NCBI GenBank assembly: GCA_002698785.1
Contig: PAAG01000053.1
Location: 124,001-188,000, forward strand
Direction: 5' to 3'
Origin: Verrucomicrobiales bacterium
GTDB lineage: Bacteria; Verrucomicrobiota; Verrucomicrobiia; Verrucomicrobiales; DEV007
DNA length: 64,000 nucleotides
How positions within the stretch are numbered: position 1 is the stretch's first letter; each line of letters begins with the position of its first letter. Under the pieces are notes generated by a model that saw only the letters and a list, made by a program, of their open reading frames with translations, was not told the DNA's origin and did no database searches. Shown piece by piece: positions 32,096 through 63,172 of the stretch. Both the position numbers and the translations under genes were made by a program.

Positions 32096-33697
32096 CTACT
32101 CTTTTACTAGAGCGACCCGAAAGCCGATCGAACGATGGCGAAGGTCCGGGAGGCCGTATCCACGAGAAGATGCTCGGGCGGAGTGCTGTTCTTCCATCCA
32201 GCTGCCACCGCGGAAAACACGGGTATCACCAGATGCAGGGCCTTTGGGGTCGTATACAGGAAGGTCGCGATAGTCGGGCTGGTAGAAATCCTGACACCAT
32301 TCCCAGACGTTGCCCTGCATGTCGAAAAGACCGTAGGCGTTTGCCTTTTTCGACCGGACTGTTGCGGAACCGTCGTAGGTGGCGATGACTCCGAGGTCCC
32401 ACGAGTCTCCGGTGAACGAAGCGGTGGAGCCAGCGCGGCAGGCATATTCCCACTGTGCCTCGGTGGGGAGGCGATAGGAGTATCCTTCGGGGAGTTTGCC
32501 TTTTTCTCGTTCGAAATCGGTGAGGCGTTTACAAAACTCGACGGCTTCGGCGTAGCTGACGTAGTAGATTGGGTTCTCAGGACCTTGCCCGAAATCAGAG
32601 ACACCAGTGAAGCCTGCAGCTCGCCGCTGCTCGTGAATGTCGGTCCCCATGAGGGCTTTCCATTGGGACTGTGTCACTTCGGTGTCGCTGAGGAAATAGG
32701 ACGTGAGGGTGATGTTGCGAGGAGGCTGTTCGTCCCGGTTGCCATCGCCGACAAGGTCTCCCATTTTGTATTGCCCATTATCGATGAGGACCATCTTCAT
32801 GCCGGAGAGATTGGAAAAGGTCGACTCGGGTGCTCTGGTAGTAGGTTTGGGTTTCGGCATGGGAGTCGTCGGCGTAGGAGCTGATGCGCTGGTGTCGTTA
32901 AAGACGAACTTGATCCCTTTGAGTCCGAGTTTGTTGTATTCGGCGGGGAGTTGAATCATGTAGCGCGGATCCTGAGCATTTCGTTCGGATGAGAGTGCGT
33001 TGACTTCTTCGCGGGTTTTGGCGAAGACTTCCATCACACTGAGTCCGGGCTCGATGAGGTTGTTTGTCAGGATCTCGGTGAAGAGGCCGTCGTTGGCAAC
33101 TTCCCCGGCATCTGCGGAATAACTGACCAGCATGCCGAGAGGGGCAGAGACGCGTGCGAGGCCACGTGCACCACCGAGTGAGCGGGTTTTCCCTCCGCTG
33201 GTGACGGGAATAGGATTGTCCCGGCAGGCGTCGAGGATGATGAGTTTTAGGTCGGCCTGGGTGAGTTCTATCTCGTCCATGACGACATTGAGCGACAGCA
33301 TTTTGCGCCGTAGGCGGCGCTTGGTGGCATCGACTGAGGTTTCGATGTTGTCGGCGATGTTGGAATCGCTGGTGAGGAGGAAGTTCTCGCCGTGATATTC
33401 GATGCCGTGTCCGGCGAAGAAGAACATGGCGCATTCGGCGCTACGCGCCTTACTCATGAACTTGTCGATGCCGTCGAGGGCGTCGTCGAGGCTGGGGTCT
33501 TCGAGTAGATGGACATCGAAGGGGGAAGCCATTTTTTGAAGTGCCTCCGACATGAGACGGGCATCGCGAACAGCTCCGTCGAGGTCGGGGACAGAGTCAG
33601 TAGCATACTGATCCACGCCAATGATGAGAGCGATACGATCGGCCGCGTTGACGGTGCCAATGCACGCAAGAATGAGGAATAGAAGGAACGCTCTCAT
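32096..33697 (-). CDS. exported caspase-like protease fused to an FGE-like (sulfatase-modifying-factor fold) domain
   Basis: A 533-residue protein with a signal peptide (MRAFLLFLILACIGTVNAAD). Residues about 22-260 are a peptidase C14 domain with the catalytic dyad in FFAGHGIEY (His about 97) and IILDACRDNP (Cys about 158). A Pro/Thr/Lys linker (TPTTPMPKPKPTTRAP) leads to an FGE/SUMF1-fold domain (about 295-533: GQYKMGD, SDTEVTQSQWKALMG, YRLPTEAQWEYACRAG, GNVWEWCQD, FRGGSWMEEQHSARASS). The two catalytic Cys of true FGE, expected just after RGGSW, are missing, so this part is probably a binding module. Its ATG overlaps the stop of the 800-residue gene (ATGA); an ATG nine bases earlier is also possible. 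Confidence 0.88.
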   Translation of the reverse strand: MRAFLLFLILACIGTVNAADRIALIIGVDQYATDSVPDLDGAVRDARLMSEALQKMASPFDVHLLEDPSLDDALDGIDKFMSKARSAECAMFFFAGHGIEYHGENFLLTSDSNIADNIETSVDATKRRLRRKMLSLNVVMDEIELTQADLKLIILDACRDNPIPVTSGGKTRSLGGARGLARVSAPLGMLVSYSADAGEVANDGLFTEILTNNLIEPGLSVMEVFAKTREEVNALSSERNAQDPRYMIQLPAEYNKLGLKGIKFVFNDTSASAPTPTTPMPKPKPTTRAPESTFSNLSGMKMVLIDNGQYKMGDLVGDGNRDEQPPRNITLTSYFLSDTEVTQSQWKALMGTDIHEQRRAAGFTGVSDFGQGPENPIYYVSYAEAVEFCKRLTDFEREKGKLPEGYSYRLPTEAQWEYACRAGSTASFTGDSWDLGVIATYDGSATVRSKKANAYGLFDMQGNVWEWCQDFYQPDYRDLPVYDPKGPASGDTRVFRGGSWMEEQHSARASSRGYGLPDLRHRSIGFRVALVKE

Positions 33698-38053: not shown

Positions 38054-39472
38054 ATGTTCGCCAGTCGTCATCAGGGGATCATTCGCCTGTTCTTTATTCT
38101 CCAGCAGTTAGGAGTTTTGGCACTGCTGTGGACGATCTATCCGCTGGTGAATTGGCTGCGATTCGACTGGGAATTGTCTATGGGGCCCTACCGGGAAGCA
38201 GGATTGCTATTGTTCGCGGCGGCACTTGTTGAAATTTTTTCCCGCGATCCTGAGTCCCGGGCGATGTCGGGGTTGAGTCGAAGGAGGCTTGCATCCATCA
38301 GTCACAGGCAGACGCTTTTTGCCCTGGTTTCCATTCTGGGAACCATGGTCATGTTGAAAGACGACAGTCTGTCCCGTGTCTTTCTCGTTACGTTTTTCCT
38401 CTGCTATTTCATCTGGATATACTGGACCAACCAATATGGGTTCCGGCTTCTGCACCAGTTTCTCTACAAAACCGGAGCCAAGGGCAATTCGGGAGCTGTT
38501 CTGATTGGAAAGCCGGACGATGTAGGCCGGTTCTGTACGGATGCGGATTCGCCGAAAACGCCGGGTACGGATATCCTCGGATATATTCCCGATCCTGCAG
38601 GGGTGGAGGGTGGAGCGCTTAGCCTTTCCATTCCACAATTGGGAGAGTTTGCGGATATTCGTAGGGTTTGCGAGGAGACGCGAGCCCGTGTTCTGCTTTT
38701 GTTAGGGTTGCGAGATCGTCCAGATGTGGTGTCACCCGTAAAACAGGTTTCCGGGGAACTGGGATTGCGGACGATGTGGATCGAGGATGTGGATACCCAT
38801 TATGGGAAAGATTCCCATCCGTTTTACTCGGGGCGGTTTTCGGTGGTTTCACATATTCGGGAGCCGCTGGAAGATCCAACAAACCGAGCCATCAAGCGGT
38901 GTTTTGACTTGGTGTTTTCGACATTGGGAATCATGGCCCTGCTTCCACCGTTGGTGGTTTATGTGAAAGCGGTGCAGATGATGTTTGCGCGAGGACCTCT
39001 TTTTTACCGCCAGCAGAGGACGGGACGTAATGGGGAGGTATTCGAAATCCTGAAATTTCGTTCGATGTATTTCTGCGAGAAGGATGAGTTCGAGCAGGCA
39101 AGGCCGGGAGATAGTCGCGTTTACCCTGGGGCTCGTCTGTTGAGGAGATTGAGCATTGATGAGTTTCCACAATTGATCAACGTCTTCCGCGGCGACATGA
39201 GTGTGGTGGGACCCAGGCCGCATCCTATTCCTCTGGATGAGAGGCTCTCGAAAGAGAATCCGGTGTATCGAATGCGCCACCTGTCGAAGCCTGGCATCAC
39301 AGGTTTAGCGCAGAGCAGAGGCTGGCGGGGAGAAACGAAGAGCGGGAGACAGCTCGCGAATCGAACTCGTCTCGATCTTTTTTACATCAAGAAGTGGTCC
39401 CTTGGTTTCGACATTCGGATCATTTTCGAAACGATTCCTCAATTCATCAAACCTCCCAAGACCGCGGTCTGA
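38054..39472 (+). CDS. polyprenyl-phosphate sugar-1-phosphate transferase (exopolysaccharide initiation)
   Basis: A 472-residue membrane enzyme. Four to five N-terminal helices (about residues 10-135) are followed by a CoA-binding-like region (GAVLIGKPDDVGRF) and the C-terminal bacterial sugar transferase domain (about 275-472). That domain has the diagnostic KRCFDLVFS, PLFYRQQRTGRNGEVFEILK, KFRSMY, LSIDEFPQLINVFRGDMS and VGPRPHPIPLDE. It loads the first sugar phosphate onto undecaprenyl phosphate, starting repeat-unit assembly. First gene of a same-strand run to 45808. It resembles WcaJ/PssY-type enzymes; which sugar is used cannot be told. Confidence 0.93.
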   Translation: MFASRHQGIIRLFFILQQLGVLALLWTIYPLVNWLRFDWELSMGPYREAGLLLFAAALVEIFSRDPESRAMSGLSRRRLASISHRQTLFALVSILGTMVMLKDDSLSRVFLVTFFLCYFIWIYWTNQYGFRLLHQFLYKTGAKGNSGAVLIGKPDDVGRFCTDADSPKTPGTDILGYIPDPAGVEGGALSLSIPQLGEFADIRRVCEETRARVLLLLGLRDRPDVVSPVKQVSGELGLRTMWIEDVDTHYGKDSHPFYSGRFSVVSHIREPLEDPTNRAIKRCFDLVFSTLGIMALLPPLVVYVKAVQMMFARGPLFYRQQRTGRNGEVFEILKFRSMYFCEKDEFEQARPGDSRVYPGARLLRRLSIDEFPQLINVFRGDMSVVGPRPHPIPLDERLSKENPVYRMRHLSKPGITGLAQSRGWRGETKSGRQLANRTRLDLFYIKKWSLGFDIRIIFETIPQFIKPPKTAV

Positions 39473-39502
39473 GTCGATCGAAGCCCCCGCCCAATTTTCA
39501 AG

Positions 39503-41533
39503 ATGCAGGAAGATTCAAGACAGCATGTAAAAGACGCGCCCGATTCCCAGTTTCGATGGCTGGAAATCGATGGCAGCGATTTGCGTTTTTTGATTCGAAA
39601 GCATCTCGCGCTCGCACTTTTCCTGGTCTTTCTGTGTGCTGCAATTGGTTTTTTACTAACAAAAGTACTGCGGCCTGTTTTCACCAGTCAGGCCGTGGTG
39701 TATCTGCGACCGAATTTCGAGAAGGACATCGAGTTGCAGAATTCTTTCTCCAAGCTCGATGACGACGATTCACTGCGCTCGGTGGAAATGGCGATGGTCT
39801 CCGACACTGTCATCCTGAATACGATCGAGAGACTGGGTTTGCGGGATGAGGAGGAATATCTGGGGCCTACTTACATCGGCCTTCCTCCACGGACAGATTA
39901 TGCGGTGTTGAAGCGAATTCGGAAGAGATACAAATCGAAACTGATTCCTAACACTCGTCTTGTGGAACTCAAAGGAAAGGACTACTCGGCAGAGCGAAGC
40001 AAACTGATCGTGGAAACGATGATCGAGGAGTTTCTCGCTCACTTGAAAGCCGAGAGAGACCGAAAACAAAAAGTTCTTCGAGCTACTCTAGTGGAGCAGG
40101 CTGATGCGGCCCTGGCGGAAGCACTTGAATCGGAGAAGAAGTTGGAGGCTTTCCGCGCCGAAAACCCGGAGATGATCGTAGAGCAGGACAGTGAAGTCTT
40201 TCAAGAGCGACTGTTGCAATATGGAGAGGCACTGAACGATGCGATTGCTGAGAAGTCTGATCTCGAAGGAACTCTTCTTTCGTTGAAGAACATCGATCCG
40301 AAAGAAGAGCCATATCGCATCTTCCAGATTCTCCAGAACCGGAACAGCGAATACCTCTCTGACCTGATGAGAATGCATGCGGAAGCAAAGTCGAAATTGG
40401 CTTCTGTTGCGGAAAGGAATACGGCTGACCATCCCTCGTATCGAGAGGCTGCGGGAGAGTTGAAAGAAGTGGAGGCGACCATTGCCAAGTACGCGACCGA
40501 AATGAAAAGCGGTTTGGATTCTGAGTTCCAGGCTGCGTCGAGCAAGGTGGATAAGTTCTCCGAAGACCTGGCAAAGGTGCAGAAAGAGTTTGTCTCCTTC
40601 AAGTCGAAGAGTGCCGAGTTTCGGGGTATCAAAGAGACGATAGATCGGAGTTGGAACACCTACTCTTCCCTGCAGGAGAAGGTTACCGATCTCGATCTGT
40701 ATCCGGAGACCGAGTTGAATTTTGTGACTGTGATTTCCCGACCTATCGTTCCGGATAAGAAGTCCGCCCCGAAGGGGTCTCTTTGGGCTGCTGGAGGAGG
40801 GGTGTTAGGGATGATCCTTGTTGCCGGGATTCTCGGATGGCGATACCGCAATGGGCTTCCTATTACGGACGAGACGCAGGTAAATTCATTTCCCGGTGTC
40901 GAATCGATCGGGCGCCTCGAAGTCCCTCGAAAGGCGAAGGTCGGAGAACCTGTGGGCAGAGAATGGCTGAACCCGGCTATCGCTGTTTGCCGCTCAAGAA
41001 TCCTCCACGTTAGTGCGGTTGGTCCTGGAATGTCTGTTACGAGAGTTCCTTCGGCGATTGCTCAGACTTATGCGACGAAGAATATCCGGACTCTGGTGAT
41101 CTCCATCCGAGAGACTGCGGAAGAACCTATTCCAGAGCTCAAGCCGGACGACACCCAAATGTTGACTACTCTGGATTGGTCTATCGAGAGGCTCCTCGAA
41201 CCTGAGCAATTAGTGCGAAAGATGGCTCGGTGCCTGGAGAGCTTTGACAGGATTATCCTGGATACAACTGCGGTGAAGTCGCGTGCGGCACGAGATGCAG
41301 TCGCATCGATAGTGGAAGCGAATGTAATTGCCATTGTCGAGGAAGTTTCCACCCGGCAGGAATTGAAGGTCGTAGTCGACCAGTTGAGAGGCGCTGGGGC
41401 TGAAAAGGTTTCTGCTTTGCTGCTGCGCGAACGCAGGCGGATCAAGAAAACAGAACTACTGGAGAGCGGCACAGAATCTATCCCTGAGTTTTCGAAGATA
41501 CGGGAACTTTCCGGGCGTGCAGCCGTGATGTGA
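39503..41533 (+). CDS. Wzz-type chain-length protein with degenerate BY-kinase-like domain
   Basis: A 676-residue inner-membrane protein. TM1 is at about 34-56 and TM2 at about 426-448, bracketing a long coiled-coil periplasmic part (about 180-400, with LEKKLEAFRAENPE-like heptads), the Wzz/polysaccharide co-polymerase layout. Residues about 475-676 resemble the cytoplasmic tyrosine autokinase domain. The Walker A site reads VSAVGPGMSVTRVPSAIAQ with no GK(S/T), and Walker A' and B are replaced by LVISIRE and RIILDTTAV without the usual acidic pattern. There is also no C-terminal Tyr cluster. It probably controls chain length without kinase activity. The stop overlaps the next start (GTGA). 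Confidence 0.85.
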   Translation: MQEDSRQHVKDAPDSQFRWLEIDGSDLRFLIRKHLALALFLVFLCAAIGFLLTKVLRPVFTSQAVVYLRPNFEKDIELQNSFSKLDDDDSLRSVEMAMVSDTVILNTIERLGLRDEEEYLGPTYIGLPPRTDYAVLKRIRKRYKSKLIPNTRLVELKGKDYSAERSKLIVETMIEEFLAHLKAERDRKQKVLRATLVEQADAALAEALESEKKLEAFRAENPEMIVEQDSEVFQERLLQYGEALNDAIAEKSDLEGTLLSLKNIDPKEEPYRIFQILQNRNSEYLSDLMRMHAEAKSKLASVAERNTADHPSYREAAGELKEVEATIAKYATEMKSGLDSEFQAASSKVDKFSEDLAKVQKEFVSFKSKSAEFRGIKETIDRSWNTYSSLQEKVTDLDLYPETELNFVTVISRPIVPDKKSAPKGSLWAAGGGVLGMILVAGILGWRYRNGLPITDETQVNSFPGVESIGRLEVPRKAKVGEPVGREWLNPAIAVCRSRILHVSAVGPGMSVTRVPSAIAQTYATKNIRTLVISIRETAEEPIPELKPDDTQMLTTLDWSIERLLEPEQLVRKMARCLESFDRIILDTTAVKSRAARDAVASIVEANVIAIVEEVSTRQELKVVVDQLRGAGAEKVSALLLRERRRIKKTELLESGTESIPEFSKIRELSGRAAVM

Positions 41534-42624
41534 CGAAAACAATCGTGAAACTCGGAATTCCATACGCAAATGTGAAGGCCTGTATTCCAGCAGCCGTGCT
41601 GGTGGCTGTGAACGTTACCAATCTGTTTGGTCCGACTGTTCAGCTGTTTGCTGTCGTTGCCTTGCTGTTTGTTTTTTCCGGGCATCTCAAGCTTGAGATG
41701 GGGAGGTCATGGGTTTGGGTTTTGTATTTCCTGGTATGTATTGCTGTCGGAATTCTCGCGTACGGACCCCACCAGGCGGTGATTAAAGCGGGGAAGCTAA
41801 TCCTGTTTGTGGGAGCTTCTTTCCTGACTGTGCGGGGGGCTCACGATGGGAATCGTTTTCCTGCTTTGCTCGCGTTGCGCGCTTTCCTAGTGCTTTGTTT
41901 CCTGAATGTGGGGTATGCAATCGCTGTAGGTGAGTCGGTCTTCAGGGCCGGGTTCCTGATTGAGTTTTCGATCTACAGTTCCTATACGATTGCAATACTG
42001 GTCTACCTCGCTCGGCCCGAGCTGAAGGTGTATGATAGGGTTCTCGCATACTCTTTCCTTGCCCTATGCGGATCGACAATGGGGATGCTCCTTTTGATCG
42101 CAGCAGAGTTTGTCGGGCGGAAATTTCGGCCGCGAACGATCGTTGCCCTCGTGGCGAGCCTTCCGATTGGATTGTGGGCGCTTAACCTCTTGATGAATAT
42201 ACGGGGGAAGGCGCTCTCCCTCGATTACCTGGCCACGAGTGACCGAGCGAACCTATTGATGACGTTCTGGGATACGACATTACATTCCCTAACATTCGTT
42301 CAATGGGTTTTCGGTGTTGGCGTGGGCTCACCGCTGCATCACTTCCTGACTCCGAACTCGGGATTCAACGAGTACCTTCTCGATTTGGGAGAAGACGGAA
42401 TCTATTCGTTCTGTCTGCATAATGAGGTGTTGCGCATCCTTTGCGACTTCGGGTTGGTAGGGTTGTTCATTGTCGTGGCCCGCCTGACAACCGTCTGCTC
42501 GAAGCCTGTCCTGCTCCTGTTAGCAATCGGGATGATTACGAATTCTTATCTCTATTCTTTCTCCGGTGCTTTGATTGCATCCGGCTTGTTTAATCCCAAA
42601 CCGCTTGAACCTGGTTATGACTGA
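41530..42624 (+). CDS. O-antigen polymerase/ligase-like membrane protein (Wzy candidate)
   Basis: A 364-residue polytopic protein with about ten hydrophobic segments and one larger periplasmic loop (about 245-300, including TTLHSLTFVQWVFGVGVGSP and LHNEVLRILCDFGLVG). GVGxG and the HNExLRxLxxxGxxG pattern are shared by Wzy polymerases and WaaL ligases. Inside this operon, Wzy is more likely. It starts with GTG and overlaps the preceding gene by 4 nt. Confidence 0.8.
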   Translation: MTKTIVKLGIPYANVKACIPAAVLVAVNVTNLFGPTVQLFAVVALLFVFSGHLKLEMGRSWVWVLYFLVCIAVGILAYGPHQAVIKAGKLILFVGASFLTVRGAHDGNRFPALLALRAFLVLCFLNVGYAIAVGESVFRAGFLIEFSIYSSYTIAILVYLARPELKVYDRVLAYSFLALCGSTMGMLLLIAAEFVGRKFRPRTIVALVASLPIGLWALNLLMNIRGKALSLDYLATSDRANLLMTFWDTTLHSLTFVQWVFGVGVGSPLHHFLTPNSGFNEYLLDLGEDGIYSFCLHNEVLRILCDFGLVGLFIVVARLTTVCSKPVLLLLAIGMITNSYLYSFSGALIASGLFNPKPLEPGYD

Positions 42625-42670
42625 ACCGCATGTAACCTTTGCAAATCCTCCAAAAAAGGGTGGTGAAACC

Positions 42671-43456
42671 ATGAAAGATACCGCGACGATTGCCGTGTGC
42701 ATTGTTGGTCGAAACGCGAGTTCCTACATCGGAGATGCGTTGGATTCGTTGCTTGTTCAGTCGGTCCCGGCAAATGAGGTGATTTACTACGACGATGGGT
42801 CGACCGACGACACATTACGAATTGTCCGAGAGTTCGAAGGATTGTTGCCAGGACTTCGTGTGATTGAGGGAGGCAAGAATGTCGGAATTTCCGCTGCCAG
42901 GAATCGAGCCAACCAGCTTGTCGAATCCGACTTTATCGCTGTGCTTGATGCAGATGACATTCTCGATGCGACGGCGATTGAGTCCTATCTCGATTTTCTC
43001 GAGAGAAATCCAAAGGTGGATTTGGCATATGGGAACTCCTGGATTTTTCAAGGAGATCCGGAATCAGGCTTTGTCAGGCAGTATCCCCGGTTTCGAACAG
43101 CGAGGGAGGGGATTCGTTCAGTGCTCGGTGCGCCTCTCTTGCCGATGAAACATTCCAGTATCATGTATCGGAGGGAAACGATTGAAGCACTTGGAGGATA
43201 TGACGAAAGCTTTCCTATCAAGGTTGACATTGAATTGTTCCTCCGCTTCCTCAGTGGTGGACTAGTCGTCCAGAAGATCGACAAGACGATTTCACTTCAT
43301 CGAAAGCACAGAGGGCAAGTGAGCACTCGTAGAATTGGAGGATTGTCGGCCTATCGACGCCTGGTGTCACTTTACGAGCCGAACCTTTTCGTCCGTGCTG
43401 GCCTTCTTTCGACTCGGGTTCCTGCGGAAGTTGCCAAGTGGATGATCCGAGGCTGA
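42671..43456 (+). CDS. family 2 glycosyltransferase of the exopolysaccharide operon
   Basis: A 261-residue GT-A enzyme. Nucleotide-sugar site motifs are ICVG-type AVCIVGRNASSYIG, YYDDGSTDDTLRIV and FIAVLDADDILDA (the DxD-like metal site). A GGYDESF acceptor-side motif follows. It adds a sugar to the lipid-linked repeat unit at the cytoplasmic face. ATG 42671 has AGGGTGG upstream; an in-frame ATG at 42617 overlapping the Wzy stop is also possible and would add 18 residues. It is the only recognisable glycosyltransferase in the operon besides the initiating enzyme. Confidence 0.9.
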   Translation: MKDTATIAVCIVGRNASSYIGDALDSLLVQSVPANEVIYYDDGSTDDTLRIVREFEGLLPGLRVIEGGKNVGISAARNRANQLVESDFIAVLDADDILDATAIESYLDFLERNPKVDLAYGNSWIFQGDPESGFVRQYPRFRTAREGIRSVLGAPLLPMKHSSIMYRRETIEALGGYDESFPIKVDIELFLRFLSGGLVVQKIDKTISLHRKHRGQVSTRRIGGLSAYRRLVSLYEPNLFVRAGLLSTRVPAEVAKWMIRG

Positions 43457-43460
43457 CCAA

Positions 43461-44378
43461 ATGAACGAAAAGCTTAAGAACATTGTGCTGGATGTCGTTC
43501 GGCATTCGCCGCTAGATCCAGAGTCGCAGGAGAAGTTGTTGTATTGGGGAAAGTTCCGTGATTCTCTGAACCTTGAGAACCCCCTGACATACAACGAAAA
43601 AGTCAATTGGAGGAAGTTGCGTTGTCGGAATCCACTTTATGTTACCTGCGCAGACAAATTAGCGGCTCGGGAATATGTGAAAGAGAAGATCGGGGGCGAG
43701 TATCTGATCCCGCTTCTTTACAGCGGAGAGTCGATAACTCCTGAGGTGCTCGCTGCTCTCGGTGACGATATTGTCGTTAAAGCAAACCACGACTCGGGAT
43801 CTGCGGTGATCATTCGAAAGAACTCGATTGAGGAGGCGCGGAAGGCATGCAAGCGCATGGATGAGGCGCTTGCGTATGATTTTGGTAAGGAGACGAACCA
43901 GTGGTGGTATGCCGAGATCCCAAGAAGGGTCATGGTAGAATCCCTTATTCTGAATGAAGAAGGTGTTCTCGCGTATGATTTTAAGTTTTTTGTCTTTCGG
44001 CAGCCTGATGGTAAGAGACCGAAGATGTATATCCAGCTGGACTGCGATCGAGGGACTCCGAATTACCATCGTGCTTTTTATAACGAAGATCATGTGCAGG
44101 TAGAGAGTTCCGGGCAGGGTGTTGTCCTGGATGGAGTTCCGAATAAGAAACGGGATTTTCCGGAATTAGAGAATTATGACGAGTTTGTCAGGATTGTGCA
44201 CAAGCTGGCAGATGATTTTGACCACGTGCGTGTGGATATGTATTACGCAAGGGGGCGAATCTATTTCGGTGAGCTGACATTCTCGGATGGGGGAGGAAGG
44301 AGTGAGTGGCACCCGAACGATCTGGATCGTGAATTGGGGGACTGCTGGCATCTGGACACGTCGTATCAGACGGGTTGA
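43461..44378 (+). CDS. TupA-like ATP-grasp protein
   Basis: A 305-residue cytosolic protein. The family pattern is clear: LTYNEKVNWRKLR, YVTCADKLAAREYVKEKIG, DDIVVKANHDSGSAVI and the ATP-grasp end VRVDMYYARGRIYFGELTF with conserved Asp/Glu metal ligands. TupA enzymes join an acidic group to glutamate-type acceptors in teichuronopeptide. In Gram-negative polysaccharide loci homologues are thought to attach amino acids or similar groups by amide bonds. Here it would decorate the repeat unit. It starts 4 nt after the glycosyltransferase stop and its own stop overlaps the flippase start (TGATG). Confidence 0.88.
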   Translation: MNEKLKNIVLDVVRHSPLDPESQEKLLYWGKFRDSLNLENPLTYNEKVNWRKLRCRNPLYVTCADKLAAREYVKEKIGGEYLIPLLYSGESITPEVLAALGDDIVVKANHDSGSAVIIRKNSIEEARKACKRMDEALAYDFGKETNQWWYAEIPRRVMVESLILNEEGVLAYDFKFFVFRQPDGKRPKMYIQLDCDRGTPNYHRAFYNEDHVQVESSGQGVVLDGVPNKKRDFPELENYDEFVRIVHKLADDFDHVRVDMYYARGRIYFGELTFSDGGGRSEWHPNDLDRELGDCWHLDTSYQTG

Positions 44379-45808
44379 TGAATGGTTCGGATCGAGAGAA
44401 TGATGCTCGCGAAAATGAAGGACACCGCTCGATAAGAAACGTGTCCATTCGCAGGGCGATTTCGACCTCTCTCGCCTCGAAGGTAAGCACTGCGGTGCTC
44501 CAGTTTGTTTCCCTGCCCGTGGCGGCAAGGGCGATGGGTCGGGAGGAATTTGGAATTTACGCGACGGTATCGACTGCGGTACTCCTCGTCTTGATCCTGC
44601 AGATGGGAGTAGGTCCGGCACTGGCCAGGGGGATTTCTTCTGCAGCAGCCAGGCGTGACCGTGATCGAGAGGCGCTGTTTTTCTGGAATGGGGCTTTCCT
44701 CGTCGGATTGCTGGTCTTTCTGGGGATGGTAATCGGTGCCGTCTTTGTCCTCTATGTCCCGATCCCTCTTCTGTTCGGCGAGGAATATCGTGGCTGGGAA
44801 CCAGAAATGAAATCAGGGATCTGGACCGGACTGGTTCTCATTGGTGGGCTTCTCCTGGTTTCTCACACCGATCGGGTTCGGGAGGGCTATATGGAGGCTT
44901 ACACCGTGAATGCCTGGGGAGCATTTGGGAACCTTGTTGGCGCGGCCGCGGTGTTCGTTGGTGTGCGCTACTTTCCGTCTGTTCCTTTTCTTCTGCTCGC
45001 CATCTATTGCCCTAACGTACTGGCGAGAGTTGCGAACTCTGTCTTTCTACTACGAGACAGGCGCTATCTTCTGAAGCGCGAGAATGTTCGATTTGATCGT
45101 TCCACGATACGAGAGCTTGTGGGTGATGGAGTCTCTTTCTCAGCAACAACGTTTTTCGTATATGTGGTAGAGTTCGGATTGTGTGGTCTCCTGATCGGGC
45201 GATTGGCGGGACCAGGGGAGGTTGCTGTGTTCCAAGTATTGATGACGGTAACGACCTCATTCGAAGGTCTTCTTACCATGGTGGGTACGCCTGTCTGGGC
45301 AGCTCTAGCAGATGCAAAAGAGAAGAACGATATTTCCTGGATGAAAGACTCCATCCAAAGATACTATCGGTATCTATTCTTGCTGACCGTGGCGGTTGGG
45401 CTTGGAGAGATAGCTCTCGGACCGATTCTTTTTCCGTGGTGGTACGGAGAGGAGTTCTCCGTGGGCCGGGCTGTTTTCGCCGGTCATGCTTTGTTTCTGG
45501 CGGCGTTGGGTTGGAGAGAGGTGAATCGGTTTATTACGGTTGGTCTAGGTCTGTTGCCGAAAACCGTATGGCCCATTCTTGGGGGCGCTGCTGCTGGACT
45601 GATACTTGGGGTTCCAGGAATGCATCTTTTCGGAATGTCGGCGCTCTTTATTGGATTGGGAGTGGGAGCGCTGTTCGTGCCCGGGTTGATCTTGCCAATT
45701 CAAATTCGGAAAGTGTTGATGCAAGGTTTGCAGAAAGAAAGCGAAGCTCACCCGTCTGTGGATTCCAGCCTGACACAGGCGACATCTCCCTCGGCGTTGC
45801 GGCAATAG
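44378..45808 (+). CDS. Wzx-type oligosaccharide flippase
   Basis: A 476-residue MATE/MOP-type membrane protein with about 12-14 hydrophobic segments. The N-terminal SIRRAISTSLASKVSTAVLQFVSLPVAARAMGREEFGIYAT is the classic flippase opening (shown here in parts: ASKVSTAVLQFVSL, MGREEFGIYAT). It turns lipid-linked repeat units to the periplasmic face for Wzy. Last gene of the operon. ATG 44378 overlaps the previous stop by 1 nt. Its 3' 61 bp overlap the convergent quinoprotein gene. Confidence 0.9.
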   Translation: MNGSDRENDARENEGHRSIRNVSIRRAISTSLASKVSTAVLQFVSLPVAARAMGREEFGIYATVSTAVLLVLILQMGVGPALARGISSAAARRDRDREALFFWNGAFLVGLLVFLGMVIGAVFVLYVPIPLLFGEEYRGWEPEMKSGIWTGLVLIGGLLLVSHTDRVREGYMEAYTVNAWGAFGNLVGAAAVFVGVRYFPSVPFLLLAIYCPNVLARVANSVFLLRDRRYLLKRENVRFDRSTIRELVGDGVSFSATTFFVYVVEFGLCGLLIGRLAGPGEVAVFQVLMTVTTSFEGLLTMVGTPVWAALADAKEKNDISWMKDSIQRYYRYLFLLTVAVGLGEIALGPILFPWWYGEEFSVGRAVFAGHALFLAALGWREVNRFITVGLGLLPKTVWPILGGAAAGLILGVPGMHLFGMSALFIGLGVGALFVPGLILPIQIRKVLMQGLQKESEAHPSVDSSLTQATSPSALRQ

Positions 45809-53965: not shown

Positions 53966-55774
53966 ATGAAAAATACATCGATTCTCATTCGTCACATGTT
54001 GATTGTGAGTGTGGCTTGCGCCTCCCTCGCACGCGGTGAAGAACAAAATTCCCAACCAGATCGTCGTCCGGCGGGAATACCTCGGGCTATGACGCCACGC
54101 CCAATACCACGGCCGGCGACACATAGTGGCCCGGTAAGTGACGGGGCTGCCCTGGATTTTCCGCTGGAGTCGCGAAGTATTGACGGGCAAGGAAACAATC
54201 TCACCCACACCGAGTGGGGTGCAGCGGAGACAGTAGTCGTTCGACTGGCACCAAATGCTTATGAAGATGGGGTGGGGACGCCGGCCGGAACCGATCGCCC
54301 GAGCGCTCGAGAAGTGAGCAATGCGGTTTTCGCTCAGACGACGACTAGGGCGAATCGCTACGGTGTCACCGATTACCTCTGGCAATGGGGGCAGTTTCTG
54401 GATCACGATATTGTCGAGACTCCGACGATCGATCCCGCGGAGGCATTCGACATACTAGTCCCGACAGGTGATGCGTATTTCGATCCCTTCAGCACGGGGA
54501 CGCAAACAATCCCGCTGAATCGCTCTCTCTATGAGGAGGTCGATGGAGTAAGGCAGCAGGTGAATGCGATCACGGGATACATTGATGCCTCGAATGTCTA
54601 TGGCTCTGATGACACGCGTGCTTTTGCCCTGCGGACTTTGGACGGAACAGGGAAATTGAAGACGAGCGATGGGAACCTTCTCCCCTTTAATGAAGAAGGG
54701 CTTCCCAATGCGCCGACTACCGATTCGTTCTTGTTCCTGGCGGGAGATGTCCGAGCAAACGAGCAGATCGGGCTTACATCGATGCACACTCTATTCGTGC
54801 GTGAACACAATTACTGGGCAGGGGAGTTTGCCGCTGCGGATCCTAGTCTCAGTGGAGAAGACCTGTATCAGATGGCGCGGACGATGGTAGCGGCGGAAAT
54901 GCAATGCATCACCTATCGTGAGTTTCTTCCTCTATTGATCGGGCGGGACGGGCTGACGTTTTACCGAGGCTACAAAGCACATCTTGAGCCGACGATCAGT
55001 AATGAATTTGGTGTGGCAGCTTATCGCGTGGGTCACACAATGCTGTCGCCTCAACTGCTTCGAGTAGATGCAAACGGAAACGAAGCGCCTGAAGGGCACC
55101 TCGATCTCGCGAGTGCTTTCTTTAATCCTTCGGAGATCATTTCGTATGATATCGATTCCATATTGCGAGGGCTGGCATCACAGACTTGTCAGGAAATCGA
55201 CGCTCAATTGATCGACGATGTGCGGAACTTTCTCTTCGGGCCTCCCGGGGCAGGTGGGTTCGATCTGGCTGCATTGAATATTCAGCGAGGTCGTGACCAC
55301 GGAATCCCTGGCTACAACCAGCTTCGGAAAGACATTGGACTCGGCTCAGTATCTGGCTTTGATGAAATTTCCTCCGACGCGGAAGTTGTTGCCAGGCTGG
55401 AATCCATTTACGACACGGTGGACGATGTTGATGCGTGGGTGGGCTTGCTAGCGGAAGACCACGTTGAGGGAACGATGGTGGGAGAGTGTGTCGGAGCGAT
55501 TCTCGCGGATCAGTTCATTCGGCTTCGCGATGGCGATCGGTTCTTTTACAAAACGTATTTGCCAGGACCGCTGGCGAAGTTGGTCGAAGAGCAGACGCTG
55601 GCGACGATTATTCGTCGAAACACGGAAATTGGAGATGAGCTCCCTGACAATGTCTTTCTCCCCGGTGAGCCGATTCTGGGGCCTGCCAAACCTCCAGTTG
55701 CTGCTCCCGCTAAGAAGAAAAAGAAGAAGAACAGAAACAAAAAGAAAAATCGCAGGAACCGCCGGAATACCTGA
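53966..55774 (+). CDS. exported animal-type haem peroxidase with basic C-terminal tail
   Basis: A 602-residue member of the peroxidase-cyclooxygenase (myeloperoxidase-like) superfamily, with a signal peptide ending near SLARG. Distal Gln, Asp and His are in WGQFLDHDI (Gln about 143, Asp 146, His 147), the catalytic Arg and second haem-ester Glu in VRANEQIGL (about 262-265), and the proximal His in AYRVGHTML (about 357). Both carboxylates that can form haem esters are therefore kept, and Gln replaces the Met special to myeloperoxidase, as in lactoperoxidase. It would use H2O2 to oxidise halides or aromatics outside the cytoplasm. The last 20 or so residues are almost only Lys, Arg and Asn. It stands alone and converges on a sulfatase. 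Confidence 0.92.
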   Translation: MKNTSILIRHMLIVSVACASLARGEEQNSQPDRRPAGIPRAMTPRPIPRPATHSGPVSDGAALDFPLESRSIDGQGNNLTHTEWGAAETVVVRLAPNAYEDGVGTPAGTDRPSAREVSNAVFAQTTTRANRYGVTDYLWQWGQFLDHDIVETPTIDPAEAFDILVPTGDAYFDPFSTGTQTIPLNRSLYEEVDGVRQQVNAITGYIDASNVYGSDDTRAFALRTLDGTGKLKTSDGNLLPFNEEGLPNAPTTDSFLFLAGDVRANEQIGLTSMHTLFVREHNYWAGEFAAADPSLSGEDLYQMARTMVAAEMQCITYREFLPLLIGRDGLTFYRGYKAHLEPTISNEFGVAAYRVGHTMLSPQLLRVDANGNEAPEGHLDLASAFFNPSEIISYDIDSILRGLASQTCQEIDAQLIDDVRNFLFGPPGAGGFDLAALNIQRGRDHGIPGYNQLRKDIGLGSVSGFDEISSDAEVVARLESIYDTVDDVDAWVGLLAEDHVEGTMVGECVGAILADQFIRLRDGDRFFYKTYLPGPLAKLVEEQTLATIIRRNTEIGDELPDNVFLPGEPILGPAKPPVAAPAKKKKKKNRNKKKNRRNRRNT

Positions 55775-58471: not shown

Positions 58472-59821
58472 TCAGACCCGGCGCGATTTCAGACCAGTCA
58501 GCGAGCTTCCAAACGGAACCAGTCGCGAAGATGAAGGCTTTGCGAGCAGGTAGAGCAATTTCCCGATCGATCCCAAGGTAGGCAACACTTGAAGCTGTTG
58601 CATTCGGAGGGATGCACTGACTGATCCAGTAACAGCCAGCTGAATTCCTCGGAAGAACGATTGGCTGAAGCGAAGAAAGTTGGTCTCTTCTCCCGCGAGG
58701 AGTCGCATCGTCCGCGTTCTCTCGACGGGATATTTTCGCCACATCTGATAGATGGCCTGCCGTATGTCACGGGCGCCCTTGTCTTTTCTTGAGAATGCTT
58801 CGTAGAGGGCTACCGCGAGAATTTCGGGAACATAACTGCGAGTCAGTCGCTCTCGTTCGAACTCCCGGAATGTGTGGGATCGGGCAAGGGCATCGGCGTC
58901 ATGAAAGCCCAGGGTCATTCCCATTGCTGTAAGGGGATGATGATAGCCTACGGCATCTCCCACCAGTGGAAAATCATCCGTGCCGTAAAACGACCGAGGC
59001 ATGAATTGGTTGGGGCGAACGGAGAGCGGGTCACGCTCCAGAGCTATTGCCATCGCGTGTGCCAGGTCAGGAGGGAGGGTGGGGCAATATTCCTCCAGAA
59101 GCAGTGTCTTTTTGCAACCGGCATCACGAAATACATGGACCGGAACATCAAGGCAGGCACGGACGGTATTCTTTGCGGCGCGATACATGATGATCGGCCC
59201 CGGAGCTTTCAGAAACACGTGTCCGTATCCTTCGTGAGGGAGAGACGCCGCGTCGAGGGATACTCCCACCATGTAGGAGAGTAATCTGGGGCGACGGTTT
59301 TCTCCCAGTTTCGAACGAATCATCGAACGGCGACCGTCGGCCCCAACGATTTGGGATGCTGAAATTTCTCGTAAAGAGTCAGTTGTTTTGTCCTGATAAC
59401 TGACGATACCTTTTTCGAGTCTATTGACTTCGGCAAAAGGCAGAAAGGTGATGTTGTTGCTGGATTCGGCTTTCGAACGAAGAGATTTTACCAGCCCAAG
59501 ATGGTCACAGACAAAGCCTGATTCGCCTGCGGGATAGTCGAGGCAGACTGGCTCGCTGTCATCATCTGGATAAATGACGAACCCTTTGCCGCGGGCATAG
59601 TCAGAGTCAGCAAGAGAATCCAGGGGGATGTCGTATTTCTGCAACACCTCCAAACCTGCTGGATGGAGCCATTCACCCGCGAATTTCTTCGTGGGGTAGG
59701 GGTTGCTTTCCAGCATCGTGACGGATTGGCCGGACTCGGCGAGAGCGATCGCGGCAAGGCATCCAACGGGGCCAGCGCCAATGATCGCCGTATCGGTCAA
59801 GACTTGAGATGGATGTCGCAT
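58472..59821 (-). CDS. squalene epoxidase (squalene monooxygenase) homologue
   Basis: A 449-residue FAD-dependent monooxygenase. FAD-binding parts are TAIIGAGPVGCLAAIALAES (residues about 12-31), QIVGADGRRSMIRSKLG and VGDAVGYHHPLTAMGMTLG (about 290). The last matches the GDA-x-x-xRHPLT-x-GGMT block of squalene epoxidases. The C-terminal ILAVALYEAFSRKDKGARD aligns by eye with the helical end of the eukaryotic enzymes. It would make 2,3-oxidosqualene from squalene with O2. It lies 76 bp after the oxidosqualene-cyclase gene on the same strand, the arrangement expected for a bacterial sterol or cyclic triterpenol pathway. A less specific geranylgeranyl-reductase-like oxidoreductase is the main alternative. 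Confidence 0.85.
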   Translation of the reverse strand: MRHPSQVLTDTAIIGAGPVGCLAAIALAESGQSVTMLESNPYPTKKFAGEWLHPAGLEVLQKYDIPLDSLADSDYARGKGFVIYPDDDSEPVCLDYPAGESGFVCDHLGLVKSLRSKAESSNNITFLPFAEVNRLEKGIVSYQDKTTDSLREISASQIVGADGRRSMIRSKLGENRRPRLLSYMVGVSLDAASLPHEGYGHVFLKAPGPIIMYRAAKNTVRACLDVPVHVFRDAGCKKTLLLEEYCPTLPPDLAHAMAIALERDPLSVRPNQFMPRSFYGTDDFPLVGDAVGYHHPLTAMGMTLGFHDADALARSHTFREFERERLTRSYVPEILAVALYEAFSRKDKGARDIRQAIYQMWRKYPVERTRTMRLLAGEETNFLRFSQSFFRGIQLAVTGSVSASLRMQQLQVLPTLGSIGKLLYLLAKPSSSRLVPFGSSLTGLKSRRV

Positions 59822-59897
59822 GCCCCTTTGAGAAGGAGAGTTATTTAAAAACTCCGAAGTAAATTCTAGTCAGTGTCCGACGAAAAACAAGTCCGCT

Positions 59898-61886
59898 TTA
59901 TGTAACTCCTGCGCCGCATTCGAGATTTTCATTCCTTTTGTGGAGCAAGAGAGCGCGAAGCGGGAAGATGCGCCGATACAATCGGTAGTCCAGAACAGCA
60001 CTGCGGAAGAAGATTCCCGTTCCTCTTTGGTCCGGCCAGTTTCCGTTTTCATCGAGCTTTTCGACCAGAAATGAGATTCCCCGTTCAATAGGTTCCTGAA
60101 ATTGAGGAAGTTTCAGGGATTGCAGTCCGATTAGAGCCCATGCTGTTTGGGTGCAATTCGGTGGCCCATCGATCCATTTTTCATGGTACGAAGCTTCGTG
60201 GCTTTCTCCCCAGCTTCCATCTTCGTGCTGTTTTGAGACGAGCCAATTTCCAGCAGCGATGAGTTCGGCAGCGTCGTGCTTTGACCCACCTGCAATCAGG
60301 CCTCGTATGCCGAACATCGTTCCGTAAAGATAACAGATTCCCCAACCGCCAAACCAGGAACCGTCGTGCTTTTGCTGCTTGAGGAGCCAGGCAGCGGCCA
60401 TTGATTCGGATTGGAGTGAAAGCTGATATTCCGTCGAAGATTTCTGATATCCGAGATGAGCCCGTGCTGTTACGAGAGCTTCAATGCAGGAGGCTGTGCA
60501 TTCGACCCAGGAGTGTTCGACCATGGAGTTGCCAAACATTTCCGCTGGATTCAGCCAGTCCAAGGTGCTGCGGCAACGTCGTGCTTCGTAACTGCCGAAT
60601 CCGCCGTCGGGATTTTGTCGACTCAGAATGAAATTGACCGCACTTTCAATGCGGTCTTTCGAAATGGTTAGGTCCTCTTTGTTCTGCAGGAGGGCAACCA
60701 GTGCTTCCGCTGTGCAATCACTGACGGGCCAGAAATGGGAGGCATGGCCAAAGCAAAAACCACCCATGGGGTCTGATCGAAACTGCCTCCCGATCGTCGG
60801 GCTGCTACTCAAAATCTGTTCTCGAGCGAGCGCTTCGCGGGCTTTTTGAATTCCCGGAGTGTCGATTTCGGTTCCTAATGCCTGAAGGGCGAAGGCTGTG
60901 TCCCACGTCATGCTTCGTGCACCCGCAATTCGCATTCCGCCGACGTCGTCTACAAAGATCCATTCCTTTAGTTGATTGAAAAGGTAATCAAGTTCTGCCC
61001 TGGTCCCACCCGCCACGTGCAAAGTTACGATGCTGAGGAGGCCACTCATCGGTGAAATGAATCGACCTCCTGTGGTTTCGAGGTCATCTCGTATCAGCTG
61101 TAAGATCCTTTTCTCGGCTATCTTGCGAAGCGGTTTGAAGGGCATGCTTTCGAACAGATGGCCGAGGAAATAGAAACACTTCAGCGCCCGACCCGGTGGG
61201 CTACAAACTTCCTCTCCACGAAGCATTGAGGAAGCATTGTCGAAAAGGTCCTGGGAGTAACCTTCAGGGAAGAGTTCTTCTCGGATCTTGGAGATAGACT
61301 CATCCTCTTGTGTAGTGCTTTTCCTCCCGTAAAGGAATGCCATCGGGGCATAGATAAGGCGGGTGTGGCAATAGTAGTTGGAGGGATGAAGAGCGATCCA
61401 TTTGGGGATCAGCCATAGCTCTGGCAAGATCGGGCGAACTCCTTTCCATTCGAACAAATGCATCAATGCGAGCCAGAATTTTCCCCAGGATGGAATTGCC
61501 AGGACGCCTTTTCCTGAGGTGATGAATTCTTGAGCCCGAATCAGTAATTCGTCTTTTCCATCCATCCCGAGCAGTCGTGATGCGACGTAGACCAAGGTCG
61601 TAACAAACAAGTAGGGCTGTGAATCTGGGTGCATCCCCCAAAGCCCGTCCTCATGGCGTGTGTATTCGAATTGTTTGAGGATTTTCTGTTTCTCCTCCTC
61701 CGGAATCTTCCTTCCGATAAAATAACAGACGATCACATATTGAGCCGGGAGAATTGGGCACCAGACCACTTCTCCTTCCCATCCGCCCTCATCCAGCTGC
61801 AGCGAGAGAAGGCGATTGGAAGAACGCTTCCACGCATCCTCCACTTCTTGTGAAGCGGGTTTTGAGGGCTGCTTATTCGATTCCAT
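59898..61886 (-). CDS. oxidosqualene cyclase-type triterpene cyclase
   Basis: A 662-residue cyclase. It carries the oxidosqualene-cyclase acid motif VSDCTAEAL (Asp390, Cys391), not the DxDDTA of squalene-hopene cyclases. A second Cys in WVECTAS (Cys463) corresponds to the other H-bond partner of the catalytic Asp in lanosterol synthase. Further matches are HPSNYYCHTRLIYAPMAFLYG (shown in two parts: HPSNYYCH, RLIYAPMAFLYG), MTWDTAFALQALG, QW-type repeats (QNPDGGFGSYE, QKHDGSWFGGWGICY, QHEDGSWGES) and a C-terminal RRIFPLRAL. It should be a monotopic membrane enzyme cyclising 2,3-oxidosqualene; lanosterol, cycloartenol, parkeol or arborinol are possible products. ATG 61886 is used; the longer frame starts with TTG. 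Confidence 0.9.
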   Translation of the reverse strand: MESNKQPSKPASQEVEDAWKRSSNRLLSLQLDEGGWEGEVVWCPILPAQYVIVCYFIGRKIPEEEKQKILKQFEYTRHEDGLWGMHPDSQPYLFVTTLVYVASRLLGMDGKDELLIRAQEFITSGKGVLAIPSWGKFWLALMHLFEWKGVRPILPELWLIPKWIALHPSNYYCHTRLIYAPMAFLYGRKSTTQEDESISKIREELFPEGYSQDLFDNASSMLRGEEVCSPPGRALKCFYFLGHLFESMPFKPLRKIAEKRILQLIRDDLETTGGRFISPMSGLLSIVTLHVAGGTRAELDYLFNQLKEWIFVDDVGGMRIAGARSMTWDTAFALQALGTEIDTPGIQKAREALAREQILSSSPTIGRQFRSDPMGGFCFGHASHFWPVSDCTAEALVALLQNKEDLTISKDRIESAVNFILSRQNPDGGFGSYEARRCRSTLDWLNPAEMFGNSMVEHSWVECTASCIEALVTARAHLGYQKSSTEYQLSLQSESMAAAWLLKQQKHDGSWFGGWGICYLYGTMFGIRGLIAGGSKHDAAELIAAGNWLVSKQHEDGSWGESHEASYHEKWIDGPPNCTQTAWALIGLQSLKLPQFQEPIERGISFLVEKLDENGNWPDQRGTGIFFRSAVLDYRLYRRIFPLRALLLHKRNENLECGAGVT

Positions 61887-62005
61887 GGATTGGGAAGGAA
61901 GTGCTCTACATAGCTGCAAACCAGAGGATTTCGAAACATTTCGAATTGCCGTTTACAGGGCGCTTGTGACTTTAAATCGTTGGAAGGAATTGCTACGCTT
62001 TTTGA

Positions 62006-63172
62006 ATGGAGTGTTTTTCCTCGTTCCGGTATTTCGTCTGGTTGGGAATTCTGTGCTGTCTTTCAGTGAAAGGTTTTGCAGTGGAAAAACCGAAAGAAGT
62101 AGCCGGCAAAGCTGATGTGCTACGCCATGTCAAAAAGCAGTTCGGTTCGTTTGAAGGCATCGGCGAGAACGGAGAAGTGCGGTTGATGCTGGAAGGGAAT
62201 CACGAAGTCACTTCGTGGCCTTTGCTGCCTGATGCGGAAATCCGGGTAGATGGATGGTGGGGACGAGTGGACCAGTTTGCTCAAAAGGATCGAGTCTGGG
62301 TTTGGTTTGCGGTGAATCGAAAGAAAGATCCCACAGCGATTCTCTTGCTGGCAGACGAGATATCGGAACAGGATATTCATGGAAAACCCTACACCGTTGA
62401 GAGCGTTGAAGGTGGCGTTGCGACATTTTACATTCCGGGGGAGAAAAAGGTAGCGCCGAGGAAGTTGGAAGTGAGAGGTCGCGACCTCAACCGGGATGAT
62501 GTCGGATATCTCCAATCAGCAAACGGTGCAGTTCGCCGTTTTTTGACCGTTGTGGAGTTTGAGAAAGCGAAACAAGAGCAAAGGGACTTTCTGCGGCAAC
62601 GGTGGCGCTCCGAAGGATTACCCGGGACTGTTTCTTTTCTTCATCCTCTGAGCGGAGAAATGGAGTTGTATCTGGACCATGAAGCGATGCGATGGGCGAG
62701 ATATCTCCAAAAGGGAGATGAAGTTGTTTTTGGAAACAAGATCGACGGAAGTGCGCAGGTAAAGTTTGTCGAGCCTTGGCGTGAGCGAACTCGATTACGG
62801 ATCGTTTCTAACAGCGGGATGGATCAGTTTGAGATGAAACTGGGACAAAGAGTTCTGCTCAAGGTGCGTGAGCCGCCCGTGGATGTGCAGCAGTCAGATT
62901 TGCCAACAGATATCGGGCGTTTAGACGATGAGGAACAACGTATCGATTGGTTTCTATCGACTCTGTATTGTCCGTGTGGAATCGCCGGAGATAGATGCAC
63001 CGGAATGTATTACACGCTGGCCAGCTGCAATGTAAACACCTGCGGCGCTCCGAACGATATGAAGGCAATTCTCAAGAAGTACATGAGCGAGGGGATGGGA
63101 GACGTTGAGATCTTCGAGGAGCTGAGGGCGCAAAAGGGACGAGACGTCTGGCAACCGCATCTTTTACGGTAA
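62006..63172 (+). CDS. exported protein with C-terminal CcmH-like cysteine module
   Basis: A 388-residue protein with a leader (RYFVWLGILCCLSVKGFA). Residues about 30-300 are beta-rich, unlike anything I recognise (EIRVDGWWGRVDQFAQKDRV, YLQKGDEVVFGNKIDG). Residues about 315-388 read STLYCPCGIAGDRC, LASCNVNTCGAPNDMKAI, then a helix pair with SEGMGDVEIFEELRAQKG. The Cys arrangement and the following helices resemble CcmH/NrfF-type haem-ligation or metal-chaperone modules. It may handle thiols or metal in the periplasm. Divergent from the cyclase gene (119 bp), 56 bp before the glycosyltransferase. Confidence 0.65.
   Translation: MECFSSFRYFVWLGILCCLSVKGFAVEKPKEVAGKADVLRHVKKQFGSFEGIGENGEVRLMLEGNHEVTSWPLLPDAEIRVDGWWGRVDQFAQKDRVWVWFAVNRKKDPTAILLLADEISEQDIHGKPYTVESVEGGVATFYIPGEKKVAPRKLEVRGRDLNRDDVGYLQSANGAVRRFLTVVEFEKAKQEQRDFLRQRWRSEGLPGTVSFLHPLSGEMELYLDHEAMRWARYLQKGDEVVFGNKIDGSAQVKFVEPWRERTRLRIVSNSGMDQFEMKLGQRVLLKVREPPVDVQQSDLPTDIGRLDDEEQRIDWFLSTLYCPCGIAGDRCTGMYYTLASCNVNTCGAPNDMKAILKKYMSEGMGDVEIFEELRAQKGRDVWQPHLLR

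Follow-up and report, generated by a model that had tools for sequence, protein, structure and literature searches.

A predicted minimal sterol pathway in a Verrucomicrobiales genome and varied oxidosqualene cyclases in its family

The 64,000-nucleotide stretch of DNA analysed here (the window) corresponds to positions 124,001 to 188,000 of contig PAAG01000053.1 from a Verrucomicrobiales bacterium (assembly GCA_002698785.1) and contains, side by side, genes for a Group 1-type oxidosqualene cyclase (OSC) and a squalene epoxidase (SQE, squalene monooxygenase). Both genes are intact and lie on the minus strand. The OSC gene (59898–61886) encodes 662 residues from an ATG, its frame also being open from an alternative TTG start at 61919 that would give 673 residues, and the SQE gene (58472–59821), located 76 bp downstream, encodes 449 residues. 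The host is a metagenome-assembled genome (MAG) of 7.0 Mb, 95.9% complete with 5.0% contamination, from an Akkermansiaceae-type family of the Verrucomicrobiota. Within it the pair lies on a 325 kb contig, and the G+C content at the two genes (50–54% per kb) is inside the range of their surroundings (50–56%). Full-length open frames with the profile scores given below are no chance finding. The pairing, the 76 bp gap and the diagnostic motifs had been described in an earlier, sequence-only reading of this DNA, and all were found, the motifs at 60705–60725, 60495–60506 and 58913–58960.

The cyclase contains both SQHop_cyclase domains (Pfam) and matches TIGR01787, the model for squalene and oxidosqualene cyclases, with 458 bits (cut-off 322.7), while its match to the hopene cyclase model TIGR01507 (260 bits) is below the cut-off of 431. 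Its closest solved structure is human lanosterol synthase (LSS; 1w6k, E 1.3e-112), with squalene-hopene cyclase (SHC) at E 2e-49. In the alignment with human LSS, the stretch VSDCTAE (60705–60725, minus strand) coincides with V453, D455 and C456, which include the catalytic acid and its first cysteine partner, and VECT (60495–60506, minus strand) coincides with C533, the second cysteine partner. The alignment thus bears out the earlier statement that the acid and both cysteines of lanosterol synthase are kept. Also retained are H232, W387, F444, Y503, W581, F696, Y704 and Y707 (human numbering), residues with known roles in LSS, the aromatic ones lining the pocket. By contrast, the DxDD acid motif of the SHCs is absent, and the protein is nearer to OSCs than to SHCs in sequence comparison as well as in a rooted tree. 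The predicted structure (24 alignment rows; pLDDT 88.6, pTM 0.90) superimposes on human OSC with Z 43.0 and 2.0 Å over 639 residues and on SHC with Z 41.6 and 2.5 Å over 602 residues; the predicted fold by itself cannot tell the two families apart.

The downstream gene encodes a protein with SE and FAD_binding_3 domains (Pfam), the SE match reaching 97.6 bits against a cut-off of 20.1. The SE model is unspecific when used alone, as at E 1e-3 it matches 2 of 14 control genomes (E. coli and Caulobacter) and at E 1e-6 none of the 14, and among the best 25 of the protein's 55 NCBIfam matches none is above its model's cut-off. However, the protein also carries the squalene-epoxidase FAD block HPLTxxGMT, GDAVGYHHPLTAMGMT (58913–58960, minus strand), and among solved structures human squalene monooxygenase is clearly the closest (E 1.9e-31, against 8.6e-7 for the runner-up). 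The identification as a squalene epoxidase made in the sequence-only reading therefore holds, and the possibility that the protein is instead a geranylgeranyl reductase was not borne out, its match to that model being 60 bits against a cut-off of 158.8.

Relatives of the cyclase were collected in one pattern-based scan of a genome collection, which yielded 53 loci. The closest cyclases found, 44–45% identical to the window OSC, are encoded in two gammaproteobacterial MAGs (locus L049, JAJDVG010000003.1; locus L091, JAPOTY010000014.1), and the other loci are at most 37% identical in their best segment. In addition, 151 genomes of the Methylococcales-type order to which locus L072 belongs were searched. 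OSCs are present in 59 of these and split into two score classes, 32 above and 27 below the cut-off of TIGR03463, the 2,3-oxidosqualene cyclase model. We give the higher-scoring class the name Group 1, since its members are bacterial and branch outside the clade with eukaryotes, in line with the description of Group 1 in PMC4919349 as bacterial lanosterol synthases only. Three trees were calculated: tree 1 with 54 rows, an SHC outgroup (8 of the 29 Pseudomonadota SHC rows) and no Group 1 rows, tree 2 with 45 chosen rows including 6 of 24 Group 1 loci, and tree 3 with 33 rows including 8 of the 24. Loci L059, L067, L071, L090 and L101 were dropped as second copies of family loci and L096 and L098 as too short; L054, L056, L057, L064, L068, L077 and L099 were also left out of tree 1.

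In tree 2 the window cyclase forms a clade with those of L049 and L091 (support 100/99) that joins Group 1 (97/94), the remaining 27 OSC rows, with human LSS and a plant OSC, being on the other side (100/99). In tree 3, which lacks L049 and L091, the window row still joins Group 1 (89/87). None of the three trees places the cyclase within the SHC clade, an outcome that the sequence-only reading had named as fatal to its proposal. The residues give the same picture: VWC at 99–101, Y230 (for W), A381 (for T) and F697 (for N) are found in the window OSC and all 24 Group 1 rows and in none of the 27 other OSC rows, while a gap at 383, A700 and L702, likewise present in the window and all 24 Group 1 rows, occur in one, two and one of the other 27. 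H449 and V453 are also common to the window and Group 1 but are unspecific (21/27 and 5/27 other OSC rows). All 24 Group 1 rows, as well as L049 and L091, have the stretch GEMVWC; the window has GEVVWC (61758–61775, minus strand), which replaces GDYGGP in the Y98 region of human LSS. The unusual N-terminus of the cyclase (GEVVWC...AQYV) is, on this comparison, a trait of the Group 1 lineage and not of hopene cyclases. Trees and signature together place the window cyclase, at 37–40% identity to the Methylococcales Group 1 rows, with Group 1, the lanosterol-synthase lineage that is exclusively bacterial, and separate it from the clade that holds the eukaryotic OSCs. The idea of a new, deep-branching OSC lineage was dropped as the leading reading: once Group 1 rows are included, the clade joins them, and the odd residues are for the most part traits of that group.

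A profile of the window/L049/L091 clade was then run against 387 Verrucomicrobiota and 398 Pseudomonadota genomes, and no further members were found in either set. The former gave 19 matches including the window's own, the next best scoring 271 bits; the other 18 are 24–29% identical to the window OSC, and the three included in a tree branch with SHCs. In the latter, 48 genomes match, L049 itself with 1300 bits and the next best with 245.

In both L049 and L091, SQE and OSC form a single protein, of 1128 and 1120 residues, respectively. The L049 fusion is neighboured by an SdmB-like gene, SdmA (E 3e-123 to the 4beta-methylsterol monooxygenase model, 411 bits against a cut-off of 600), ERG4/ERG24, a P450, SMT (Sterol_MT_C) and a fatty-acid hydroxylase gene. 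We take the P450 to be CYP51-like solely from a YQFTVPIFGRGVAYD-type stretch, a motif that marks CYP51. The L091 fusion is adjoined by SdmB, SdmA and ERG24 homologs, with HpnC and HpnD genes near by; its genome holds, on a separate contig, a P450 71% identical to that of L049, and a search with the L049 protein found no close SMT there. By gene content, both loci are predicted sterol operons. The window pair resembles them in its clade and in the Group 1 residue signature. By contrast, it consists of two separate genes in the order OSC-SQE, whereas the fusions have the order SQE-OSC and are embedded with SdmB-like, SdmA and ERG24 genes (in L049 also P450 and SMT), and none of these other operon genes accompany the window pair. 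Fused homologs of this type have already been published, as have Group 1 OSCs found in sponge metagenomes (PMC10070321). Fusions of another kind, between SQE and a squalene/phytoene-synthase domain, were observed at L079 (2448–5870) and L085 (137–2677); both orders of the two domains occur, and the neighbouring OSCs belong to a Polyangiaceae and a Flavobacteriales MAG.

The host MAG has two squalene/phytoene-synthase-type (SQS_PSY) genes, by a Pfam model that also matches 7 of 14 control genomes. One is nearest to HpnD (240 bits, below the cut-off of 278.6) and CrtM, and the other is a divergent member of the family. The sequence-only reading had noted an absence of sterol-modifying genes from the window, which can now be extended to the whole MAG for ERG4/ERG24, SdmA, SdmB, SMT and CYP51, the types covered by our search, which did not extend to ERG3/ERG25-type hydroxylases or DHCR24. 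ERG4/ERG24 is found neither in the window genome nor in its five OSC-bearing relatives and is present in both fusion-bearing genomes. With the L049 proteins as queries, SdmA, SdmB and SMT gave no match in the window genome at E 1e-3; the same queries recovered SdmA (82%) and SdmB (75%), along with the P450, in the L091 genome and SMT (44%) in a family genome, G014. No CYP51-like protein was found among the two P450s of the window genome. The stronger (L102, C2:119789) is 23% identical to the L049 P450, is without the YQFTVPIFGRGVAYD-type stretch and has pentalenene oxygenase as its best NCBIfam match, below cut-off, and the second (L113) is a shorter protein with no more than a weak match to the L049 P450. 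The profile libraries name neither L102 nor the L049 P450 as CYP51. A second cyclase-like pair in the MAG (contig C31; L038, 8864–11547), consisting of a 597-residue protein with DADDT and a 297-residue partner, was rejected as a second OSC, being SHC-like.

We next consider the family. An OSC is present in 6 of 74 family genomes, namely the window genome (G000), its same-genus relatives G004, G014 and G019, and G008 and G061. At E 1e-6, SQE is found in five genomes, all among these six (G014 being the one without), and 68 have neither gene, a co-occurrence with a Fisher p of 3.7e-7 over the 74 genomes, uncorrected for relatedness. Weak TIGR03463 matches with frames of ~600–700 residues are listed for many family genomes; a weak match in G012 was rejected as an OSC because it is SHC-like.

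The six family cyclases fall in five places. The window enzyme belongs to Group 1, and that of G004 groups with Bacteroidota and the lower-scoring Methylococcales rows. The G019 and G061 cyclases, 33% identical to the window OSC, occupy one place in a myxobacteria-rich clade, and the G014 cyclase, 64% identical to a gammaproteobacterial OSC, occupies a second place in it. The G008 cyclase is in pieces spread over three small contigs, which by BLAST only are nearest to Methyloceanibacter and myxobacterial OSCs; misbinning is possible in this case and the OSC–SQE linkage is putative.

The epoxidases show a different distribution. SQE tree A contained 35 rows (the window, 33 loci matching at 1e-10 and human SQLE, with G004 and G008 left out), and tree B contained 30 rows, with G004 and G008 added and 7 near duplicates left out. 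Since the ingroup was drawn from OSC-bearing loci or genomes and holds no reductases, these trees give a placement among SQEs only. Tree B unites the window SQE with those of G008, G019 and G061 in a single clade (100/98, 46–50% identity), the nearest relative of the window SQE being that of G008 (50%, 98/94); in tree A, without G008, it groups with G019 and G061 (100/99). The fused SQEs of L049 and L091 are outside this clade, within the same larger clade, and the SQEs of the Group 1 Methylococcales are in a different one. Thus, G008, G019 and G061 have epoxidases akin to that of the window and cyclases of other lineages, and one SQE lineage is found with three different cyclase lineages. The simplest reading of this association within one family is cyclase replacement, and the five cyclase placements in six genomes point to repeated gain and replacement of cyclases in the family. 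In G004, OSC (64% identity) and SQE (L218, 1330–2712; 60%) are both nearest to those of the same Chitinophagales MAG (L065), so that these two genes look to have been transferred together.

Transporter genes adjoin several of these cyclases. In G014 (L042, 4231–9875) three genes are side by side: the OSC, an SMT gene (Sterol_MT_C) directly upstream of it, and one for an RND/MMPL transporter in which a small stretch matches the sterol-sensing domain (E 4e-7). The G019 and G061 OSCs are adjoined by HpnN-like RND transporters (L044, 7426–10092, E 8.5e-115; L043, 5890–8604, E 2.7e-111; both below the model cut-off), which are possible triterpenol exporters. Such a transporter was rejected as part of the window locus, as the window genome has merely partial, weak matches located elsewhere.

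These data suggest that OSC and SQE constitute a minimal sterol pathway that yields lanosterol and/or parkeol, left unmodified, a reading to which we give a probability of roughly 0.7. Squalene would probably be supplied by one or both of the SQS_PSY-type enzymes. By analogy with its family, the SQE would epoxidise squalene to 2,3-oxidosqualene using FAD and O2. The OSC would then protonate the epoxide through the aspartate of DCTAE and cyclise it by way of the protosteryl cation, giving lanosterol, its isomer parkeol or both; this step is suggested by the lineage of the enzyme, by the catalytic residues that it retains and by the sterol operons in which its nearest relatives lie. Because neither SMT nor genes of known bacterial type for C-14 or C-4 demethylation were found, the sterol is likely to remain an unmodified C30 compound, which is also the case in Gemmata obscuriglobus. 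The proposal of the sequence-only reading, a cyclic triterpenol made by this organism from oxidosqualene, remains the best inference. Between sterol and arborane, its two suggested product classes, the sterol is favoured by the Group 1 lineage and signature and by the nearest relatives in sterol operons, and the arborane has lost ground.

Several observations weigh against this assignment. The window OSC scores 596 bits against TIGR03463, below the cut-off of 851, unlike the 32 Methylococcales genomes that pass it; this cut-off appears narrower than the OSC family, since no family genome (0/74) reaches it and 27 of the 59 matching Methylococcales-order genomes miss it. The name Group 1 is a label given by branching and score, and the trees were built without named Gemmata, Methylococcus or Eudoraea sequences. 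In tree 1, which has no Group 1 rows, the window, L049 and L091 lie outside all other OSCs, and approximately unbiased (AU) tests gave p 0.043 for this placement and p 0.10 for a tree in which Group 1 is the first branch, so the exact place of the window OSC is not firm and the deepest branch order is unsettled. As for the remaining steps, the best solved relatives of the two SQS_PSY genes are phytoene and dehydrosqualene synthases, so that these genes could serve carotenoids, and because the genome is a MAG, absences of genes are no proof.

The long branch of the window OSC (1.47, 1.55 and 1.9 in the three trees) and its private residues leave room for another product. V51, at the place of human Y98, is M in Group 1, L049 and L091, and F396, at the place of human G450, is R, H or C in Group 1 and G in L049 and L091; with these residues, the product may differ. 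An unlikely alternative, though one to be reckoned with, is thus that a divergent Group 1 cyclase with a drifted pocket makes another 3-hydroxy triterpenol from oxidosqualene, a C30 compound other than lanosterol or parkeol. Such a cyclase would have been acquired beside an SQE that accompanies unrelated cyclases in sister genomes, in a family that swaps cyclases and keeps its epoxidase. The low identity to the nearest relatives and to Group 1 is consistent with such drift, as is the lack, in the genome searches, of modifying genes that would call for a sterol product; the checked catalytic residues and the Group 1 signature are nevertheless kept, and the closest relatives are located in sterol operons. 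If this alternative were true, the family would be a natural experiment in the diversification of bacterial sterols.

The other two alternatives depart further from these observations. Eudoraea makes isoarborinol, and some bacterial OSCs make arboranes, as reportedly described by Banta in 2017; downstream sterol genes were, moreover, not found here, as would suit an arborane synthase. However, Eudoraea belongs to Group 2a in PMC4919349 and the window enzyme goes with Group 1, making a Eudoraea-like, isoarborinol-type synthase very improbable. We regard as slimmer still the chance that the cyclase is an SHC-like enzyme acting on squalene and the FAD protein an unrelated oxygenase or reductase. 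The nearly equal fold matches to SHC and OSC, the SHC-like look of the N-terminal stretch and the imperfect specificity of the Pfam SE model would fit this combination, but the cyclase lacks DxDD and keeps DCTAE, both cysteines, H232 and Y503, its N-terminal stretch is shared with Group 1, and the FAD protein, with its HPLTxxGMT block and squalene monooxygenase as best solved relative, groups with OSC-adjoining SQEs, the two genes co-occurring in the family.

The preferred reading, an unmodified lanosterol- or parkeol-type sterol, has its nearest published counterpart in Gemmata obscuriglobus. According to PMC6606645, two co-located genes there make lanosterol and parkeol (products also given in PMC4919349) and are needed for laboratory growth, and Gemmata is called the sole planctomycete reported to make sterols. 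Compared by published description, the G. obscuriglobus SQMO-OSC (squalene monooxygenase–OSC) system and the window locus both have two co-located genes, no modifying genes listed in the consulted text of these sources (PMC6606645, PMC4919349) and a host in the PVC superphylum, the hosts being Planctomycetota and Verrucomicrobiota, respectively. The Group 1 lanosterol synthases of Methylococcus type share with the window the lineage, the signature residues and an SQE near the OSC; they differ in passing the TIGR03463 cut-off, in sequence and in having an SQE from another branch. The statement in the sequence-only reading that only a few bacteria carry the pair is outdated, since PMC10202945 counts both enzymes in 103 isolates and 21 MAGs, and a Verrucomicrobia OSC is already listed in PMC4919349. 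The pair is a rare yet recognised bacterial ability, here in a little-studied group; a limited literature search recognised no publication on sterols of this Akkermansiaceae-type family. What is new is the association of one SQE lineage with three cyclase lineages, together with the spread of the family's cyclases over five placements. Bacterial sterol synthesis is relevant to the origin of sterols and to the reading of sterane fossils, and a bare pathway with varied cyclases in Verrucomicrobiota suggests that PVC bacteria have acquired such genes repeatedly and replaced their cyclases. The family cyclases also form an enzyme set that allows direct comparison of products.

The surroundings of the pair are varied. 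Downstream of SQE on the same strand are a BNR-repeat gene (37 bp gap) and then a sulfatase gene, and directly upstream of the cyclase, on the opposite strand, is a gene for a 388-residue protein (62006–63172) that neither Pfam nor NCBIfam models match at E 1e-3. Elsewhere in the window are an animal-type haem peroxidase (53966–55774; PF03098, E 4.6e-154) with a tail rich in Lys, Arg and Asn, a single protein that combines a caspase-type peptidase domain with a sulfatase-modifying-factor domain (32096–33706), and an exopolysaccharide-type cluster (38054–45808) with a sugar transferase, a Wzy_C-like protein (below its cut-off) and a polysaccharide flippase.

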